This document shows, in pieces, positions 9,569 to 19,612 of a stretch of 64,000 bases of DNA (positions are counted from its first letter, which is position 1; the number at the start of each line of letters is the position of its first letter). Both the position numbers and the translations under genes were made by a program. The notes beneath the pieces are model-generated. The model saw nothing but the letters and a program-made list of their open reading frames with translations. It ran no database searches and was not told the origin of the DNA. This DNA is from Thermogemmata fonticola (GTDB lineage Bacteria; Planctomycetota; Planctomycetia; Gemmatales; Gemmataceae), in contig NZ_JACEFB010000002.1 of assembly GCF_013694095.1 (NCBI RefSeq), forward strand, positions 496,001-560,000, in the 5' to 3' direction.

Positions 9569-10516
9569 TTACGCCGGAAACAAGCGGTGGAGCGGGATGG
9601 GATAGGGGCCGAGTTTGCCGCCGTAATTTCCCGCAGAAATCCGCACCACTCCCGGCTGGCACGCTGCGGTGATCCCCACCCGCATGGCTTCCTCCACGGC
9701 TGCCAGACTCAGCCCGTCGATGACAATCTCATATACCGCGTTGACGCCCTCCGGCAGCCGGCTTGCCACGCCGCCGCGGAGCGTGGGACAGTAGGCGTCG
9801 TTGGTGCTGGCTTTGAGCGCCTTGTACTTGCTCCCCACTTTGCTGCCGCTCCGCACGATCCCGCCGGGAAAAGGCAGGATCACCTCCGGAACTCGGCGGA
9901 TGGCCTGCACCGCGGCTTCCGCCGCCGCGAGGGCTGCTTCCTGCGACCGCCCCAAAATGAGGAAGTTGCCCCCAGCCACCCCCTTGACCGTCCCGAAGGT
10001 CTCCTCGCAAAGAAACTCCCCGTCCATCGTGGGGATGCGCCAGTAGCGCTTCCCGTCCAGATACTTGCTGAGTTGCCAGCCGTCGCCAAAATAGCGCAAG
10101 GCGCCGCCCACCTTGATCGACCGCGCCGGGTCGATCGGCAGGCCGTTGTAACACGCCGTGGTGGCACACGTCAGCACGCACTGAGCCACCCGGTTGACCA
10201 CGGCCTTCTGCAACGCATCCCGGCTGAAGGCGAACAGAAGCAGGCTGACACCGGGCCGTCCATCCGGCGTTTCCTGGGGGGATAACTCTCGCTCCAGGCC
10301 CGCTTCCGCATCGCATCCAATCACCGACGTCGCGTACCCCGTGGCGGCCTGAGCAGCAATCATCGCCCAGTGCGGCGACTGGGCCGTGATGATCAGCCGC
10401 GCGGCTGTCATCCCGAACGCTTCCGCAAATGTGTCCTCGATTTCTACCCCTTGCACAATTCGCATGGCCGCTTCCCGAACCGGTCCGGGAGTTGAGGGAG
10501 TCGTTGTGGCGTTCAT
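9569..10516 (-). CDS. ftr: Formylmethanofuran:tetrahydromethanopterin formyltransferase
   Basis: A 315-residue protein with strong Ftr/FhcD features: IEDTFAEAFGM near residue 26, TGYATSVIGCDAE near 78, GNFLILGRSQEAALAA near 195, FPGGIVRSGSKVGSKYK near 228 and a C-terminal GKLGPYPIPLHRLF. Ftr moves the formyl group between formyl-methanofuran and tetrahydromethanopterin. Among bacteria it is known in methylotrophs (FhcD) and planctomycetes, where it serves formaldehyde oxidation or formate metabolism. It is divergent from fmdD, with only 68 bp between the starts. The neighbouring fmdD/fmdB confirm the pathway. No fmdA or fmdC homologue lies in the window, so the complex must be completed from another locus. 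Confidence 0.92.
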   Translation of the reverse strand: MNATTTPSTPGPVREAAMRIVQGVEIEDTFAEAFGMTAARLIITAQSPHWAMIAAQAATGYATSVIGCDAEAGLERELSPQETPDGRPGVSLLLFAFSRDALQKAVVNRVAQCVLTCATTACYNGLPIDPARSIKVGGALRYFGDGWQLSKYLDGKRYWRIPTMDGEFLCEETFGTVKGVAGGNFLILGRSQEAALAAAEAAVQAIRRVPEVILPFPGGIVRSGSKVGSKYKALKASTNDAYCPTLRGGVASRLPEGVNAVYEIVIDGLSLAAVEEAMRVGITAACQPGVVRISAGNYGGKLGPYPIPLHRLFPA

Positions 10517-10584: not shown

Positions 10585-10971
10585 ATGCCTAGCCGCTACC
10601 TGCTCATCCCGATCCGCTCCAATAAACAAGGAGTGCAGGTCAATGTCGGCAAGGAGGGACCGGAATACCAGTCCCTGGTGACGGTGCTGACGATGCATCC
10701 GGAGGACGTGCGGGAGGCGGGATTGCAAGCGGGGCAGCCGGTGCGCGTGCGTACCGTCCACGGCGAGGCGGTGTTCGTCTGCCAGGAGGGAAATGTGCCA
10801 CGCGGGCTGCTCTTCGTGCCCTATGGTCCGCCGACCTGCCGCCTGATGGGGGGAGAGACCGACGGTACAGGCATGCCGACCTCCAAAGGGTGGGAAGTGG
10901 AGCTGGAACCGCTTTCCTCCTCCGAAGTGCTTCACTCGGAAGCCGGGACGATTCCCGGTGCCAACGGCTGA
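10585..10971 (+). CDS. fmdD: Formylmethanofuran dehydrogenase subunit D (molybdopterin dinucleotide-binding)
   Basis: A 128-residue protein, close to the size of archaeal FmdD/FwdD. LTMHPEDVREAGLQAGQPVRVRT is the molybdopterin-dinucleotide-binding double-psi beta-barrel signature, and GLLFVPYGPPTCRLMGGETDGTGMP matches the FwdD C-terminal region. In archaea this subunit completes the cofactor site of FmdB. FmdD is absent from the Methylobacterium FhcABCD complex, so its presence here argues for a true molybdo/tungsto-enzyme. GGGAG lies nine bases before the ATG. It leads the plus-strand group fmdD, a 42-residue ORF and fmdB. Confidence 0.88.
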   Translation: MPSRYLLIPIRSNKQGVQVNVGKEGPEYQSLVTVLTMHPEDVREAGLQAGQPVRVRTVHGEAVFVCQEGNVPRGLLFVPYGPPTCRLMGGETDGTGMPTSKGWEVELEPLSSSEVLHSEAGTIPGANG

Positions 10972-11311: not shown

Positions 11312-12670
11312 ATGAATCCAACCCCCAAGGACGCACCGATGGAACTGACAGTGGTCAAAAATGCGGTTTGCACCTTCTGCGGCTGCGTTTGCGATGACAT
11401 CGAACTCCACGCTGATGGCCAGCGCATCGTCGAAACCAAACGAGCCTGCATCCTGGGGGAAGCCTGGTTCAAGCATCACACGGCGGAAAAACTCTATCCT
11501 CCCGCTCTCATCGACGGCCAGGAGGCCACGCTCGACGAGGCGATTGAGCTAGCCGCTGACATTCTCCACAAGGCCGACCTGCCGCTCATCTACGGCCTGA
11601 GCAACATCACCTGCGAAGCCCAGCGTGAGGCAGTCTGGCTGGCCGAGACTGTCGGCGCCGTCATCGACAGCCACACCTCGCTTTGACACGGCCCCACCGA
11701 AATCGCTGCCCAGTTGGGTGGCAAAGTCTCATGTACCCTGGGGGAAGTCAAAAATCGGGCCGACCTGATCATCTATTGGGGAGGCAACCCGGCAGAGTGC
11801 CATCCCCGGCACTTCACCCGTTACACGCTGACCCAGAAGGGGAAATTCACTCCCCGCGGGCGTAAGGACCGCACGATGGTCCTGGTCGATATTCGGGAAA
11901 CTCCTAGCTCCAAGGCCGCGGACATTTTCCTCCAGGTCCGGCCCGGCAAAGACTTCGAGGTCCTCACGACCTTGCGAGCCTTGATCAAGGGCCAGCCCGT
12001 GGATGCTGCCGCGGTGGCGGAAACTGGTCTGACTCTAGAACAGTTGCAGGACCTAGCCCAACGCATGAAAACGGCCCGCTTCGGCGTCCTTTTCTTCGGC
12101 ATGGGCCTGTCCATGACCCGCGGCAAGCACATGAATAGCGCCGCGGCCCTCACCCTTGCGGCGGAACTGAATGCCTTCACCAAATTCGTGGCCATGCCCA
12201 TGCGGGGTCATGGCAATGTCACCGGAGCGGATGTCGTCCTCCGCTACACCACGGCTTACCCCTTCGGTGTGTCCCTCTCCCGCGGCTATCCTCGCTTCAA
12301 CCCCGGCGAGTTCTCCACAATCGACTTGCTCGTGCGCGGAGATAATGACGCTACCCTGGTCCTCGGTGCGGATCCCGGTGCCACCATGCCCCAACCCGCT
12401 ATCGAACATCTCCGCCGCACACCCACCATCGTCCTGGACCCCAAGGTCACGTACACCAGCCGCCTGGCACGCGTGCACATTACCACCGCCGCCACTGGCA
12501 TCAGCGCGCCAGGGACTGTCTATCGCATGGATGAAATCCCCTTGCCCTTGCGGCCCATCCTCCGCTCGCCTTATCCGACGGACGAAGAAGTGGTCCGCCG
12601 CATCCGCCAAACCATTCAGCAGCGCCACGGCGGCTTCCTCCCCACCGCTGACCATCTCCAACTCGCTTGA
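11312..12670 (+). CDS. fmdB: Formylmethanofuran dehydrogenase subunit B, selenocysteine-containing (UGA at codon 125)
   Basis: The frame is continuous from ATG 11312 to 12670 except for one TGA at 11684-11686. Reading it as Sec gives a 452-residue protein, close to archaeal FwdB/FmdB (about 430). The N-terminus has cluster cysteines Cys20, Cys23, Cys27 and Cys46 (VCTFCGCVCDDIE and RACILGE), as in enzymes with a 4Fe-4S cluster. The TGA falls in HTSL-U-HGPTE, exactly where archaeal FwdB/FmdB carries the Cys or Sec that binds Mo or W. A downstream part beginning at 11714 is therefore not a separate gene. ATG 11339 has AAGGA seven bases upstream and may be the true start. A TGC-to-TGA sequencing error or a pseudogene would look the same, but all flanking motifs are intact. 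Confidence 0.88.
11684..11722 (+). promoter_or_regulatory. Selenocysteine UGA codon with candidate bacterial SECIS hairpin
   Basis: The UGA is at 11684-11686. GCTGCCC (11705-11711) pairs with GGGTGGC (11716-11722) through seven pairs, two of them wobble, around the loop AGTT. Bacterial SECIS elements lie directly after the UGA inside the coding region. The UGACACGGCCC context is also shared with the E. coli fdhF Sec site, as I remember it. The hairpin starts 18 bases after the UGA, somewhat farther than the 11 of fdhF. An alternative CCACC/GGTGG pairing is possible. Confidence 0.5.
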
Positions 12671-14976: not shown

Positions 14977-15175
14977 TGAAACCTGACAGATGACAACGAA
15001 AAGGAGGCAGAACCATGATCACGGCGAATGCGGCACAGCGCGGGAAAGCGGCAACCCAATTGCCAGAGCGGCGGGGGGCGATCCGGGGAGCACAAACCAG
15101 CCGGTGGGGAGGTCGCTCTGTTGGTCGGGGGGGAGGAAGCGAGGCGGGGCGGCGGCGCGGCCAACAGAGGGGGAA

Positions 15176-16204
15176 TTATCCGGGTACGCCCGGAATGATG
15201 TCGAGCACGATTTTGCCGAAGTGGATCCCCCGGCGCATCGCTTCGAGTGCTGCGGGCAATTCCGGGAGCGGGAAACGGCGATCGATGACGGGGCGGAGGC
15301 GATGCTGCTGGAGGAAGACGAGCATGTCCTCGAACATTTTTCGGGAGCCGACGAAGATGCCCTGGAGCCGGACCGCTTTCATGAGGATCGGCATGGGGTC
15401 GATAGTTCCTCGGCCCGCCAGCACGCCAATCAAGGCGATGTACCCTCCGCGGCGCACCGCCCGCAGCGAGCGCTCCAGGGTGCCGGCACCGCCGACTTCC
15501 AGAACGATGTCCGCACCTTGTCCTTCCGTTTGTTCGCGGACCCACCGATCCCATTCCGGCACCGTGTGGTAATTGGCTGTGGCGTCCGCCCCCAATTGAG
15601 CAGCCCGTTCCCGCTTGTGTTCCTGGCCGGACAGCAGCAGCACGCGCGCTCCCATTGCTTTGGCCAACTGCAAGCCGAAGATGGACACGCCGCCCGTTCC
15701 CAGCAACAGGACCGTCTTACCCGGTCGGCATTCGCCGCTGATCAAGGCATTCCAGGCAGTCAAGGCCGCACAGGGCAGGGTGGCGGCGCTGGCGTAATCC
15801 CAATCCTCCGGCAGCGGCACAGCACCGGCCTGCTCGAGCAAGACATATTGGGCAAATGTCCCATCGCGATCGGCACCGAGAGTCGAGCGGGCCGCCGTGT
15901 CTGTCAGCGGGCCGTCCGCCCACTTCTGCATGAAGCAGCCGATGACCCGGTCGCCCACGCGGAAACGATCGACATCCGGCCCCACGGCGATGACTTCGCC
16001 GGCGCCATCCGAACCGAGGATGCGCGGCATCGACAAGCGAGGATTGTAGCTTCCTTCTACGATCAGAACGTCGCGATAGTTCACCGAGACCGCATGGAGC
16101 CGCACGAGAATCTGCCCCGCTGCGGGAACAGGAATCTCGCATTTGGTCCAGCGCAAATGCTCGGTTCCGAAACCGCCGTCGAGCACCCAAGCATGCATTG
16201 GCAT
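15176..16204 (-). CDS. Zinc-independent MDR oxidoreductase (quinone oxidoreductase/alcohol dehydrogenase-like)
   Basis: A 342-residue medium-chain dehydrogenase/reductase. The N-terminal GroES-like domain contains VSVNYRDVLIVEG and PRILGSDGAGEVIAVGPDVDRFRVGDRV. It lacks the structural four-Cys zinc lobe. The Rossmann domain has GKTVLLLGTGGVSIFGLQLAKAMGA with an NAD(P) glycine motif, and the C-terminal region has IHFGKIVLDI. It likely reduces quinones, enones or aldehydes with NADPH; the substrate is unknown. It is divergent from the kinase-WD40 gene with 129 bp between starts. Confidence 0.85.
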   Translation of the reverse strand: MPMHAWVLDGGFGTEHLRWTKCEIPVPAAGQILVRLHAVSVNYRDVLIVEGSYNPRLSMPRILGSDGAGEVIAVGPDVDRFRVGDRVIGCFMQKWADGPLTDTAARSTLGADRDGTFAQYVLLEQAGAVPLPEDWDYASAATLPCAALTAWNALISGECRPGKTVLLLGTGGVSIFGLQLAKAMGARVLLLSGQEHKRERAAQLGADATANYHTVPEWDRWVREQTEGQGADIVLEVGGAGTLERSLRAVRRGGYIALIGVLAGRGTIDPMPILMKAVRLQGIFVGSRKMFEDMLVFLQQHRLRPVIDRRFPLPELPAALEAMRRGIHFGKIVLDIIPGVPG

Positions 16205-16333
16205 CGCCTCCTCCGATTTCGGGGTGATTATAGGAATTGTCCTCTCGCGGAAGATGAGCCATGTGCTAAACTAGGACTTGGGCACCATGTCCTGCGGGAA
16301 GCACGCAGAGTTTTTTCAGGGACGTGCAGACCG

Positions 16334-19300
16334 ATGGCGGACTCGACCGACTCGCTCAAACTCGACGACTATCTGGCTCGACTGCTGGCCGCCCTCGACT
16401 CCGGAGTCGAAGGGGGGAACAGTCACGCCCCAACCGTGGACCTTTCGGCTCGGCAGGGTCTGCCGTCGCAGGGAGGTCCTCAGGCTGAGGCGGCAATCCC
16501 CGTGTCTCATGAGGGATCACTGAGCGAGGTCATACCGGGTCCGGGGAATGCGGGCGTTCCCCTGCGTGTAGCGCCGGGGTCCCCCTTGCGTATTGGCCGC
16601 TTTGAGCTGCGCCGCCAGTTGGGCAAGGGGGGGTGTGGTATCGTCTTTCTGGCCTTCGATCCGAAATTGCAGCGGGAAGTCGCCTTGAAAATCCCTCGCC
16701 CCGAGATGCTCTTGAGCGCGGACGCCCGCAAGCGATTGATCCGAGAAGCCCAAGCGGCGGCGGAATTCGATCATCCGAACCTGGTGCCAGTGTATGAAAC
16801 GGGCGAGTTCGGTCCGCTGTGCTACATCGCCACAGCCTTCTGTCCGGGTCAGACTCTGGGCCAGTGGCTGGAGAAACAAGCCTTCCCGGTCCCTGTGCGT
16901 CAGGCGGCCCGCTTGGTCGCCATTGTCGCCGAGGCGGTTCAACATGCCCACGATCGCGGCGTCCTCCATCGGGACCTCAAACCGAACAACATCATCCTTC
17001 AACCGGTCCGAGAGGATCCCCTGGCGGAAGAGCCTCCGGTCGGCTCCTGCCAACTCCGCGGAGAATACTTCATTCCGCGGGTCGTAGACTTTGGCTTGGC
17101 TAAGCTCATGGAACGCGGTGAGCCATCCGATACGCGTACTTGGCAGATTCTCGGCACGCCGAAATACATGGCCCCCGAACAAGCTCTAGCCAAGCATCGG
17201 GATTTAGGTCCGGCCGCGGATGTCTATGCCCTGGGTGCCATCCTCTATGAACTCCTCACCGGTTGTGCTCCCTACGACGGTGCGACGGATGTCGAAGTGC
17301 TCCGCCAAGTCATCGATGGGCAGCTCAATCCGCCCCGCCAAATCCGGCCGGACATTCCCCGAGACTTGGAAGCCATTTGCCTCAAGGCGATGGAAAAGAA
17401 TCCAGGCCGGCGCTATCGCACCGCGATCGACCTGGCCGATGATCTGCGGCGCTTTCTCGATGGCAAACCCACAATCGCCCGGCCGCTCAATTGGCTGGGA
17501 CGCGTGGCTCGCTGGGCACGGCGGAACGATCAACTCGTCGCCTTGATCATCGTCAGTGCCATCGCGGTTGTTATGATCGGTGTGGGTACTTGGTACATGG
17601 GGGAGACACGCCGGCTCAAAAACGACCAGGAACGGGCGCGATCCGACCAAGAGCTACGCGCCCGCTTGGAACGTCAACGGGACTATGCCCAATACATCTA
17701 TGCCACTTTCCTCTCCCTTCGCAGCGGCAATCGTGATGAAGCCAAGGATTACTTAGAAGCGGCCCGGATGATTGCGACGTACCTCAACGAACCTCTGGAC
17801 TTTCCCTATCGCCACCTGAGCCGCCTGGTCCAGCTCCCACGCCAGGATATTCCTACTTTCGCAAACCGTGTCACTGCTTTGGCGGTTTCCGCGGACCTCC
17901 GCTACCTCTGCTGGGCATATCCCGATGGTACCCTCACACTCTGGGACATCGCCCAGTCCCGACCCGTGCAAACGTGGAAGCATACCACCCAGGAGATGCA
18001 GAATGCTGGGAAAACCTCGCTCCACCTCGCGTTTGTGGGACCCCAGTCCAAAACCCTGCTGGTGTGCAACGAGACGGCGGAGGCGCCCCACCTCAGCGTC
18101 TGGACCCTCCACTCCGAGGGTACGATGGCCCCACTTGCGAATCTTCCCGCCGTTTTCCAAAGCCCCTGGCTCCGTTGTGCGACCAGTCCCGATGGCCGTT
18201 TCAGTTGCGTCGAACATCGTGACGGCACTGTCCTCCTCTGGGATTGGTTCGAGCAGAAAGTGGCGGCGCAAACCCGCTGGCCTCAGAGCGTGAAGGAGAT
18301 GCATGTGCGCACCCTGCCCTCCGGTTGTGAGGTGGCATTCGCCACCCGTGATGGAACAGTTGGGCTGTGGGATGGCCGTTCGCCCCCGCGGATGTTGCCT
18401 CCCCTCGATAACTCCTCACGCATCACCTCTCTCGCCTTCACAGCGGAGGGCAAAATTGCCTTGGGCAGCAACACCGGCTTATGGATTCTGGAGAAAGGTA
18501 AGCAGTGGAAGCAGCAGGGGAACTCGCCCGTTCGTTGGGTCTTTTCTTCCCCCCACGGTCTGTTGACTTATGTCAAGCCAGGGCGGTTTTCTCTTCAGCA
18601 GGAAGCCCGATTCTGGGAATGGCCCGTGGTGGAACATGGCGAGATCACGACGGCCGCACTCGATGCCAACGGGCGCTTGCTTTGCACTGCCGGTGAAGAC
18701 GGCTTCGTGAGACTCTGGCGGATTCCCGGAGATCCCCACGAGCTGGGGGTTTTACAAGTTCCCCTCATCCAGGGTGTGTTCGTATCTGAAGAGTCTCCCC
18801 AAGGCGTGTTGCTTGATGCTCAGAAACGGTTTTTTCCTCTGGCTGATTCTCAGAATGCTCCTCTGCCCTCGCCCTCGCTCCCGATCCTCGATGCTTTCCT
18901 GACGCAGGACGGTTCCCTCCGAGTCTTTCTAGCGGACGGCTCCACGATTCGCGACGAGCAATGGACAGGCCCAAAGCGGCGGCTTGTCCGCCAGTGGCGC
19001 CTTCCTCCGGCAGCGCAAGTGCGTTGGGCCAAATTCTCCAGGCCGGCCGGCCACCTTCTCGCGGCTGATCACTTGGGCCGGCTGTACCTGTGGAATACCG
19101 CAGACGTACCCTCCGCAGCCCCGTCGATCATCGAGACCTCCAGCGGCAAGGTTGTGGCTGAAGCAGTCCTGGCTCGCGACGCTTCGTTGCTGGCAGCTCG
19201 CTGGGATCGATCGGCGATCAGCATATGGTCCGTGGCGGAGAATAGTTGGAAGCTCACCTTGTCCATTCCCGATGCGACCGATTTTTGTTTCGTGGAAAAT

Positions 19301-19612
19301 AGCGGTTTTCTAGCGACGGCGGGCGAACGAGGGGCCATCCGCTTGTGGTCGCTGGAAAGCGGCCGGGAGGCGGCCACGTTCCTGGGACACATCGGTGCTG
19401 CCACCTGTCTTGCGCTGTCTCCAGATCAGCGCACTCTGATCAGCGGTGGAGCCAACGGCGAGGTAATTTTCTGGGATTTGCGAGCACAGCGGGAAGTCTT
19501 TCGTCAGCGCCGCCACGATGGACCCGTGCGCCACATTCGCTTCGCCAATCGAGGGCGCTGGCTCATCACCGCCACGTCCGATCAGGTCGCCCTCTGGCAA
19601 ACTAGCGAATGA
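16334..19612 (+). CDS. Membrane Ser/Thr protein kinase fused to WD40 repeats
   Basis: 1092 residues from ATG 16334; the frame is open much further upstream, but that part is antisense to the oxidoreductase and not coding. Residues 1-85 are a hydrophilic tail. Residues 88-375 form a Hanks-type kinase: glycine loop LGKGGCG (96-102), Lys119, HRDLKPNN (212-219), VDFGLAK (251-257) and GTPKYMAPEQ (274-283). A single membrane helix lies near 401-421 and a short coiled region follows. From about 490 to the end come WD40 blades (LTLWD, VLLWDW, VRLWR, IRLWS, VIFWD, VALW). This kinase-TM-beta-propeller layout is characteristic of planctomycetes. The propeller probably senses or scaffolds on the far side of the membrane. 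Confidence 0.92.
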   Translation: MADSTDSLKLDDYLARLLAALDSGVEGGNSHAPTVDLSARQGLPSQGGPQAEAAIPVSHEGSLSEVIPGPGNAGVPLRVAPGSPLRIGRFELRRQLGKGGCGIVFLAFDPKLQREVALKIPRPEMLLSADARKRLIREAQAAAEFDHPNLVPVYETGEFGPLCYIATAFCPGQTLGQWLEKQAFPVPVRQAARLVAIVAEAVQHAHDRGVLHRDLKPNNIILQPVREDPLAEEPPVGSCQLRGEYFIPRVVDFGLAKLMERGEPSDTRTWQILGTPKYMAPEQALAKHRDLGPAADVYALGAILYELLTGCAPYDGATDVEVLRQVIDGQLNPPRQIRPDIPRDLEAICLKAMEKNPGRRYRTAIDLADDLRRFLDGKPTIARPLNWLGRVARWARRNDQLVALIIVSAIAVVMIGVGTWYMGETRRLKNDQERARSDQELRARLERQRDYAQYIYATFLSLRSGNRDEAKDYLEAARMIATYLNEPLDFPYRHLSRLVQLPRQDIPTFANRVTALAVSADLRYLCWAYPDGTLTLWDIAQSRPVQTWKHTTQEMQNAGKTSLHLAFVGPQSKTLLVCNETAEAPHLSVWTLHSEGTMAPLANLPAVFQSPWLRCATSPDGRFSCVEHRDGTVLLWDWFEQKVAAQTRWPQSVKEMHVRTLPSGCEVAFATRDGTVGLWDGRSPPRMLPPLDNSSRITSLAFTAEGKIALGSNTGLWILEKGKQWKQQGNSPVRWVFSSPHGLLTYVKPGRFSLQQEARFWEWPVVEHGEITTAALDANGRLLCTAGEDGFVRLWRIPGDPHELGVLQVPLIQGVFVSEESPQGVLLDAQKRFFPLADSQNAPLPSPSLPILDAFLTQDGSLRVFLADGSTIRDEQWTGPKRRLVRQWRLPPAAQVRWAKFSRPAGHLLAADHLGRLYLWNTADVPSAAPSIIETSSGKVVAEAVLARDASLLAARWDRSAISIWSVAENSWKLTLSIPDATDFCFVENSGFLATAGERGAIRLWSLESGREAATFLGHIGAATCLALSPDQRTLISGGANGEVIFWDLRAQREVFRQRRHDGPVRHIRFANRGRWLITATSDQVALWQTSE

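Follow-up and report, generated by a model that had tools for sequence, protein, structure and literature searches.

The window analysed here is a stretch of 64,000 nucleotides from Thermogemmata fonticola (contig NZ_JACEFB010000002.1, positions 496,001 to 560,000). It carries genes for two subunits of a formylmethanofuran dehydrogenase (FMD) beside a formyltransferase gene. The features discussed below are as follows.

9569–10516, minus strand: ftr/fhcD, formylmethanofuran:H4MPT formyltransferase (TIGR03119, 467 bits; PF01913, PF02741)
10585–10971, plus strand: fmdD, molybdopterin-dinucleotide-binding subunit D (PF01568, Molydop_binding, 7.8e-10)
11312–12670, plus strand: fmdB, catalytic subunit B of formylmethanofuran dehydrogenase (TIGR03129, 498.8 bits)
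11369–11371, plus strand: Cys20 codon, first ligand of a predicted [4Fe-4S] cluster (invariant column)
11378–11380, plus strand: Cys23 codon, predicted [4Fe-4S] cluster ligand (invariant column)
11390–11392, plus strand: Cys27 codon, predicted [4Fe-4S] cluster ligand (invariant column)
11447–11449, plus strand: Cys46 codon, predicted [4Fe-4S] cluster ligand (invariant column)
11684–11686, plus strand: UGA codon, predicted selenocysteine 125 and Mo/W ligand (aligned with the archaeal FwdB Cys)
11705–11722, plus strand: predicted bacterial SECIS hairpin, GCTGCCC-AGTT-GGGTGGC, 7 bp (consensus fold, pair counts, synonymous constraint)

The fmdB frame has a sole interruption, the TGA at codon 125, and closes with a UGA that serves as the stop. 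With the internal TGA read as selenocysteine (Sec), the product is 452 residues long. It matches the FwdB/FmdB family TIGR03129 over profile positions 1–419 of 421 (E value 9e-150, cut-off 327.8 bits) and, at E values of about 1e-113 to 1e-100, the FwdB chains in solved archaeal complexes. The real start may be the ATG at 11339 (MELTVV...), where the alignment of relatives begins. A second fmdB is absent from the source genome, and the Sec form is its only FmdB. Elsewhere in the window, a long open frame of 1540 residues occupies 14990–19612 on the plus strand.

The internal TGA lies within the motif HTSL-U-HGPT. The residue opposite is Cys in the archaeal chains 5t5i_B, 8rja_B, 9sw6_J, and 7bkb_H, and X in 9sfi_Q. 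Homologues from other bacteria and archaea also have Cys at the equivalent position. C20, C23, C27, and C46 are all present in FmdB, and their columns are invariant, archaeal structures included (alignment A2). Strong conservation extends to UHGP and the Sec/Cys ligand as well as the cluster cysteines.

A TGA occupies the same fmdB codon in 46 of 149 genomes, comprising the source genome and its relatives, at 73–92% identity, and in 46 of 46 orthologues of the clade. Forty-four of the 46 genomes belong to Gemmataceae, the family of the window, and one each to families f4 and f6. A scan of 392 Planctomycetota spread over the phylum found the UGA-plus-hairpin pattern in 10 genomes from several families; a reversed control pattern gave 0 matches among the 392. 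The TGA-bearing records include, under the names as deposited, Gemmataceae, Fimbriiglobus, Rhodopirellula, Rubripirellula, Fuerstiella, Planctomycetaceae, Pirellulaceae, and Phycisphaeraceae, and one Actinomycetota MAG bears the TGA as well. In this MAG (L196, 3001–4302), the Sec-fmdB is divergent (64%), its hairpin contains a compensatory U-A pair, and fmdC follows directly with no fmdA between.

Other arrangements of fmdB were also observed. Tandem pairs at L129 (5210–7989), L130 (5054–7752), and L134 (1990–4791) place a Sec copy beside a non-Sec copy. The ligand of the second copy is Thr in genomes G034 and G062 and Cys in G087, and the second copies have neither the TTG codon nor the 7-bp hairpin described below. 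Four IMG/VR contigs (L235–L238) carry a Cys-type fmdB (54%).

Compared with a same-genus relative, dN/dS is about 0.06 on the 5′ side of the TGA (0.069/1.11) and about 0.04 on the 3′ side (0.048/1.31); purifying selection evidently acts on both sides. In the first six codons past the TGA (+1 to +6), the amino acids are kept in 44–46 of the 46 genes and the third bases are free, so translation runs across the TGA.

The putative SECIS hairpin has an AGUU loop at 11712–11715, 25 nt past the UGA. Bacterial SECIS elements sit in frame directly downstream of the codon and have a small apical loop with a G (PMC1088965), a form that the predicted hairpin fits. Consensus folding of 46 sequences over the 57 nt after the TGA yields a single 7-bp hairpin. 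Codons +7 to +12 are under the strongest synonymous constraint of the 202 six-codon windows in the gene. Leu +10 is encoded by TTG in 46 of 46 genes, compared with a TTG share of 2–35% at 30 other conserved Leu sites, and all 74 distinct sequences combine the loop AGTT with the Leu codon TTG. One inner pair is broken in three of these 74 hairpins. Compensatory U-A pairs occur in two, L035 (Gly to Ser) and L196 (Ala to Ser), each at the cost of an amino-acid change. Where non-Sec homologues have Gln-Leu at the corresponding site, the Leu codon is CTC or CTT and the 7-bp hairpin is absent. Codon-shuffle fold z-scores are modest (mean -1.2). In the close set, where the sequence scarcely varies and covariation is thin, 35 of 500 shuffles did equally well in the pair-count test; the case for a SECIS therefore rests on the codon constraint and the non-Sec controls.

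The source genome (4.81 Mb, 97% complete) contains the machinery for selenocysteine. Profile searches recovered selA (448 bits), selB (396 bits), selD (291 bits), and tRNA-Sec (74.9 bits), each over its cut-off and on separate contigs. The anticodon of the tRNA-Sec is UCA. A full SelA is encoded in 43 of the 46 Sec-fmdB genomes; full-length SelA was not found in G017 and G039, both more than 90% complete, or in G044, which is 69% complete. SelA is a weak discriminator within the window's family because nearly all members have it. It separates Sec-fmdB genomes only in f4 and f6, where the one Sec-fmdB genome of each has the only strong SelA match.

The remaining subunits and several C1 pathway genes are present as well. 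fmdD lies upstream of fmdB and ftr diverges from fmdD, an arrangement common to many Gemmataceae. The best PDB matches of FmdD are archaeal FwdD proteins (2ki8_A, 2.6e-15; 5t5i_D, 1e-10). fmdA (681 bits) and fmdC (251 bits) are adjacent to each other on contig C3. This locus (L135, 7654–10306) is apart from fmdD-fmdB; most relatives keep fmdD-fmdB-fmdA-fmdC together. FmdA and FmdC are closer to the archaeal FMD subunits than to Methylorubrum Fhc, and FmdA retains the HxH, Lys, HLHC, and TTDHP motifs of archaeal alignments. The genome also contains mch and fae. No polyferredoxin FwdF/FwdG was recognised beside the operon among the neighbours scanned. The MobA match falls under its curated cut-off (94.5 versus 151.85 bits), and the last step of cofactor synthesis thus lacks a firm gene identification.

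A sequence-only reading of this DNA had described an fmdB frame open on either side of one TGA, the placement of that TGA where archaeal FwdB/FmdB carries Cys or Sec, four cluster cysteines, and a separate FmdD. Reading-frame analysis, the alignment with archaeal FwdB and other planctomycete FmdB, and the FmdD matches confirm these points. The reading had further proposed a search for selA, selB, selC, selD, and a bacterial SECIS, all of which have now been located, the last as a SECIS-like hairpin. It had considered that the gene might be frameshifted or lost in relatives, which instead keep the TGA in many independent assemblies. Its statement that no start lies near the break needs correction, as a TTG candidate is present at 11714; the pattern of codons +1 to +6 still indicates that translation crosses the TGA.

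That candidate invites a reading in which two proteins are made, one stopping at the UGA and the other restarting at the TTG, ten codons past it. The TTG is invariant in the 74 sequences, and bacteria can use this codon as a start, but here it encodes a conserved Leu and is buried in the stable hairpin. Cys-type homologues are continuous through the site, and non-Sec homologues retain the Leu, not the TTG. The restart was rejected because the codons from UGA to TTG are conserved as amino acids, and its probability is minute. Readthrough with another amino acid, or a regulated stop independent of selenium, has nothing specific in its favour. Such decoding is very improbable in view of the SECIS-like hairpin, the tRNA-Sec, and selA, selB, and selD, the Cys found at the exact codon in homologues, and the gene's own UGA stop. 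The same stop and the tRNA-Sec led to rejection of a non-standard code with UGA as Trp. Nothing favours a sequencing error or a recent pseudogene, either of which is barely conceivable: dozens of independent assemblies share the TGA, and the dN/dS values on both sides rule out this explanation together with them.

The presence of FmdD bears on whether the Sec-FmdB is a dehydrogenase or a scaffold. FmdD is encoded within 4 kb of 63 of 64 Sec forms and of 39 of 43 Cys forms of the TTSVCHGP type, as against one of ten other Cys forms and two of 35 ligand-lost forms, both of the latter being tandem copies next to an intact Sec gene. This distribution is the best argument for a redox-active Sec-FmdB over an FhcB-type scaffold. 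The FhcB type is marked by loss of the ligand and the cluster cysteines and by the lack of FmdD; here the ligand, the cysteines, and FmdD are all present. As a separate observation, homologues with the motif DTTAS-C-HAPS (L077, 4070–5308; L080; L081; L092; L131, 4129–5403) keep the Cys and have no FmdD nearby.

A complex could contain Sec and nonetheless work as a formyltransferase/hydrolase like Methylorubrum Fhc, with a vestigial redox centre and release of formate instead of CO2. Ligand-lost FhcB-like homologues are numerous in planctomycetes (S, T, N, A, E, G, or F at the site), ftr adjoins, and the lack of recognised FwdF/FwdG nearby would suit such a complex. However, the ligand and cluster residues are strongly conserved, FmdD is retained with Sec and missing where the ligand is lost, and by E value FmdB stands much nearer to FwdB (about 1e-111) than to FhcB (6s6y_B, 8e-13). 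A functionless and costly Sec is also unlikely to persist, and the hydrolase reading is quite improbable. The same Sec enzyme might alternatively serve, as in methanogens, to reduce CO2 to formyl-methanofuran, either to fix carbon or to supply C1 units. In archaea, the enzyme built from these subunits runs in reduction, and FmdA, FmdC, and FmdD resemble the archaeal subunits. Yet the genome encodes Fae, the first step of formaldehyde oxidation, and low-potential ferredoxin subunits were not recognised beside the operon; a reductive role is unlikely. The distinction from FhcB drawn by the sequence-only reading, which took the enzyme for a true dehydrogenase, gains support from the cluster cysteines, the FmdD co-occurrence, and the closeness of all four subunits to archaeal FMD.

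The preferred reading is that fmdB encodes a selenoprotein, very probably within a redox-active FmdABCD complex that most likely oxidises formaldehyde-derived formyl groups to CO2. SelB bound to the hairpin at 11705–11722 would bring Sec-tRNA(UCA) to the UGA at 11684. Sec125 would then ligate Mo or W bis-pterin in FmdB, beside the N-terminal [4Fe-4S] cluster. FmdB and FmdD, together with FmdA, a predicted dinuclear-Zn amidohydrolase, and FmdC, would form the redox-active dehydrogenase. With Fae, Mch, and Ftr, formaldehyde-derived formyl groups would most likely pass through formyl-methanofuran to CO2, the reverse of the methanogen reaction. From the observed sequence features, conservation, gene presence, and co-occurrence, we infer Sec insertion as well as the metal, activity, and reaction direction.

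A tree of 77 proteins, obtained by a quick search and including five archaeal sequences from structures, separates bacterial FmdB from the archaeal sequences. Together with a small number of derivatives bearing Thr, Ser, or Cys, the Sec group makes up a starred clade; Cys forms dominate its sister group. One change is needed for the Sec group, the support for the exact branch being low (26), and Sec likely arose in or entered bacterial FmdB once. With only five archaeal sequences, the tree cannot separate Sec retention from archaea and a new gain. In a tentative scenario, possible but doubtful as a whole, an enzyme of archaeal descent moved into Bacteria, where it either retained Sec while swapping its 3′-UTR SECIS for an in-frame one or regained Sec once in a Cys lineage. 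Planctomycetes would now run a selenium-dependent FMD that converts formaldehyde to CO2 without free formate.

These data indicate that selenium-dependent FMD is common in planctomycetes, beyond the methanogens under which a 2026 review places the FMD selenoprotein (PMC13188914). The presence of a Sec/Cys ligand with FmdD, as opposed to neither, provides a simple genomic rule that parts likely redox-active FMD from Fhc-type hydrolase complexes in bacteria. Sec-fmdB also offers a system for studying how Sec decoding outlasts a move from one domain to another, or how it emerges afterwards.

Bacterial Sec-FmdB has been published already, and the novelty supposed by the sequence-only reading is accordingly smaller. 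In 2016, fmdB was described as a selenoprotein gene in Rhodopirellula sp. P2 and two unclassified bacteria, within an fmdD-B-A-C operon, and Sec-FmdB was reported from a Lake Washington fosmid; only Gly forms were listed for other planctomycetes, including Gemmata obscuriglobus (PMC4807772). Sec-FmdB of Rhodopirellula sp. P2 and Lake Washington likewise has an in-frame UGA and an fmdD-fmdB-fmdA-fmdC operon, whereas the source genome has fmdA-fmdC on contig C3. Against the one planctomycete and two unclassified bacteria of that study stand 44 Sec-fmdB genomes in the window's family, and Sec forms were recovered also in Rhodopirellula, Rubripirellula, and other Pirellulaceae. New here are the breadth (Gemmataceae, Pirellulaceae, Phycisphaeraceae, and an Actinomycetota MAG), the conserved predicted SECIS, and the FmdD rule. 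In addition, fwdD was stated in 2016 to be absent from Planctomycetes and Proteobacteria (PMC5020050), which the FmdD loci found here contradict.

Archaeal Sec FwdB/FmdB, for example that of Methanopyrus kandleri, resembles the enzyme in having subunits A–D and Sec as the Mo/W ligand in UHxP. Archaeal SECIS elements sit in the 3′ UTR (PMC1088965), whereas the source fmdB has a bacterial-type hairpin within the reading frame. Cys-type bacterial FmdB (TTSVCHGP; Gammaproteobacteria, Chloroflexota, and Planctomycetota) shares the ligand position, the cluster cysteines, and the nearby FmdD, but has a Cys codon and no SECIS hairpin. Methylorubrum FhcB is a homologous subunit with shared pathway partners (FhcA, FhcC, and FhcD/Ftr). 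Its 361-residue chain aligns only from FmdB residue 66 onward, and the Fhc complex has no FmdD subunit, unlike the source. FhcB is without a pterin cofactor, and an archaeal origin of bacterial FwdB has been argued (PMC10100899).
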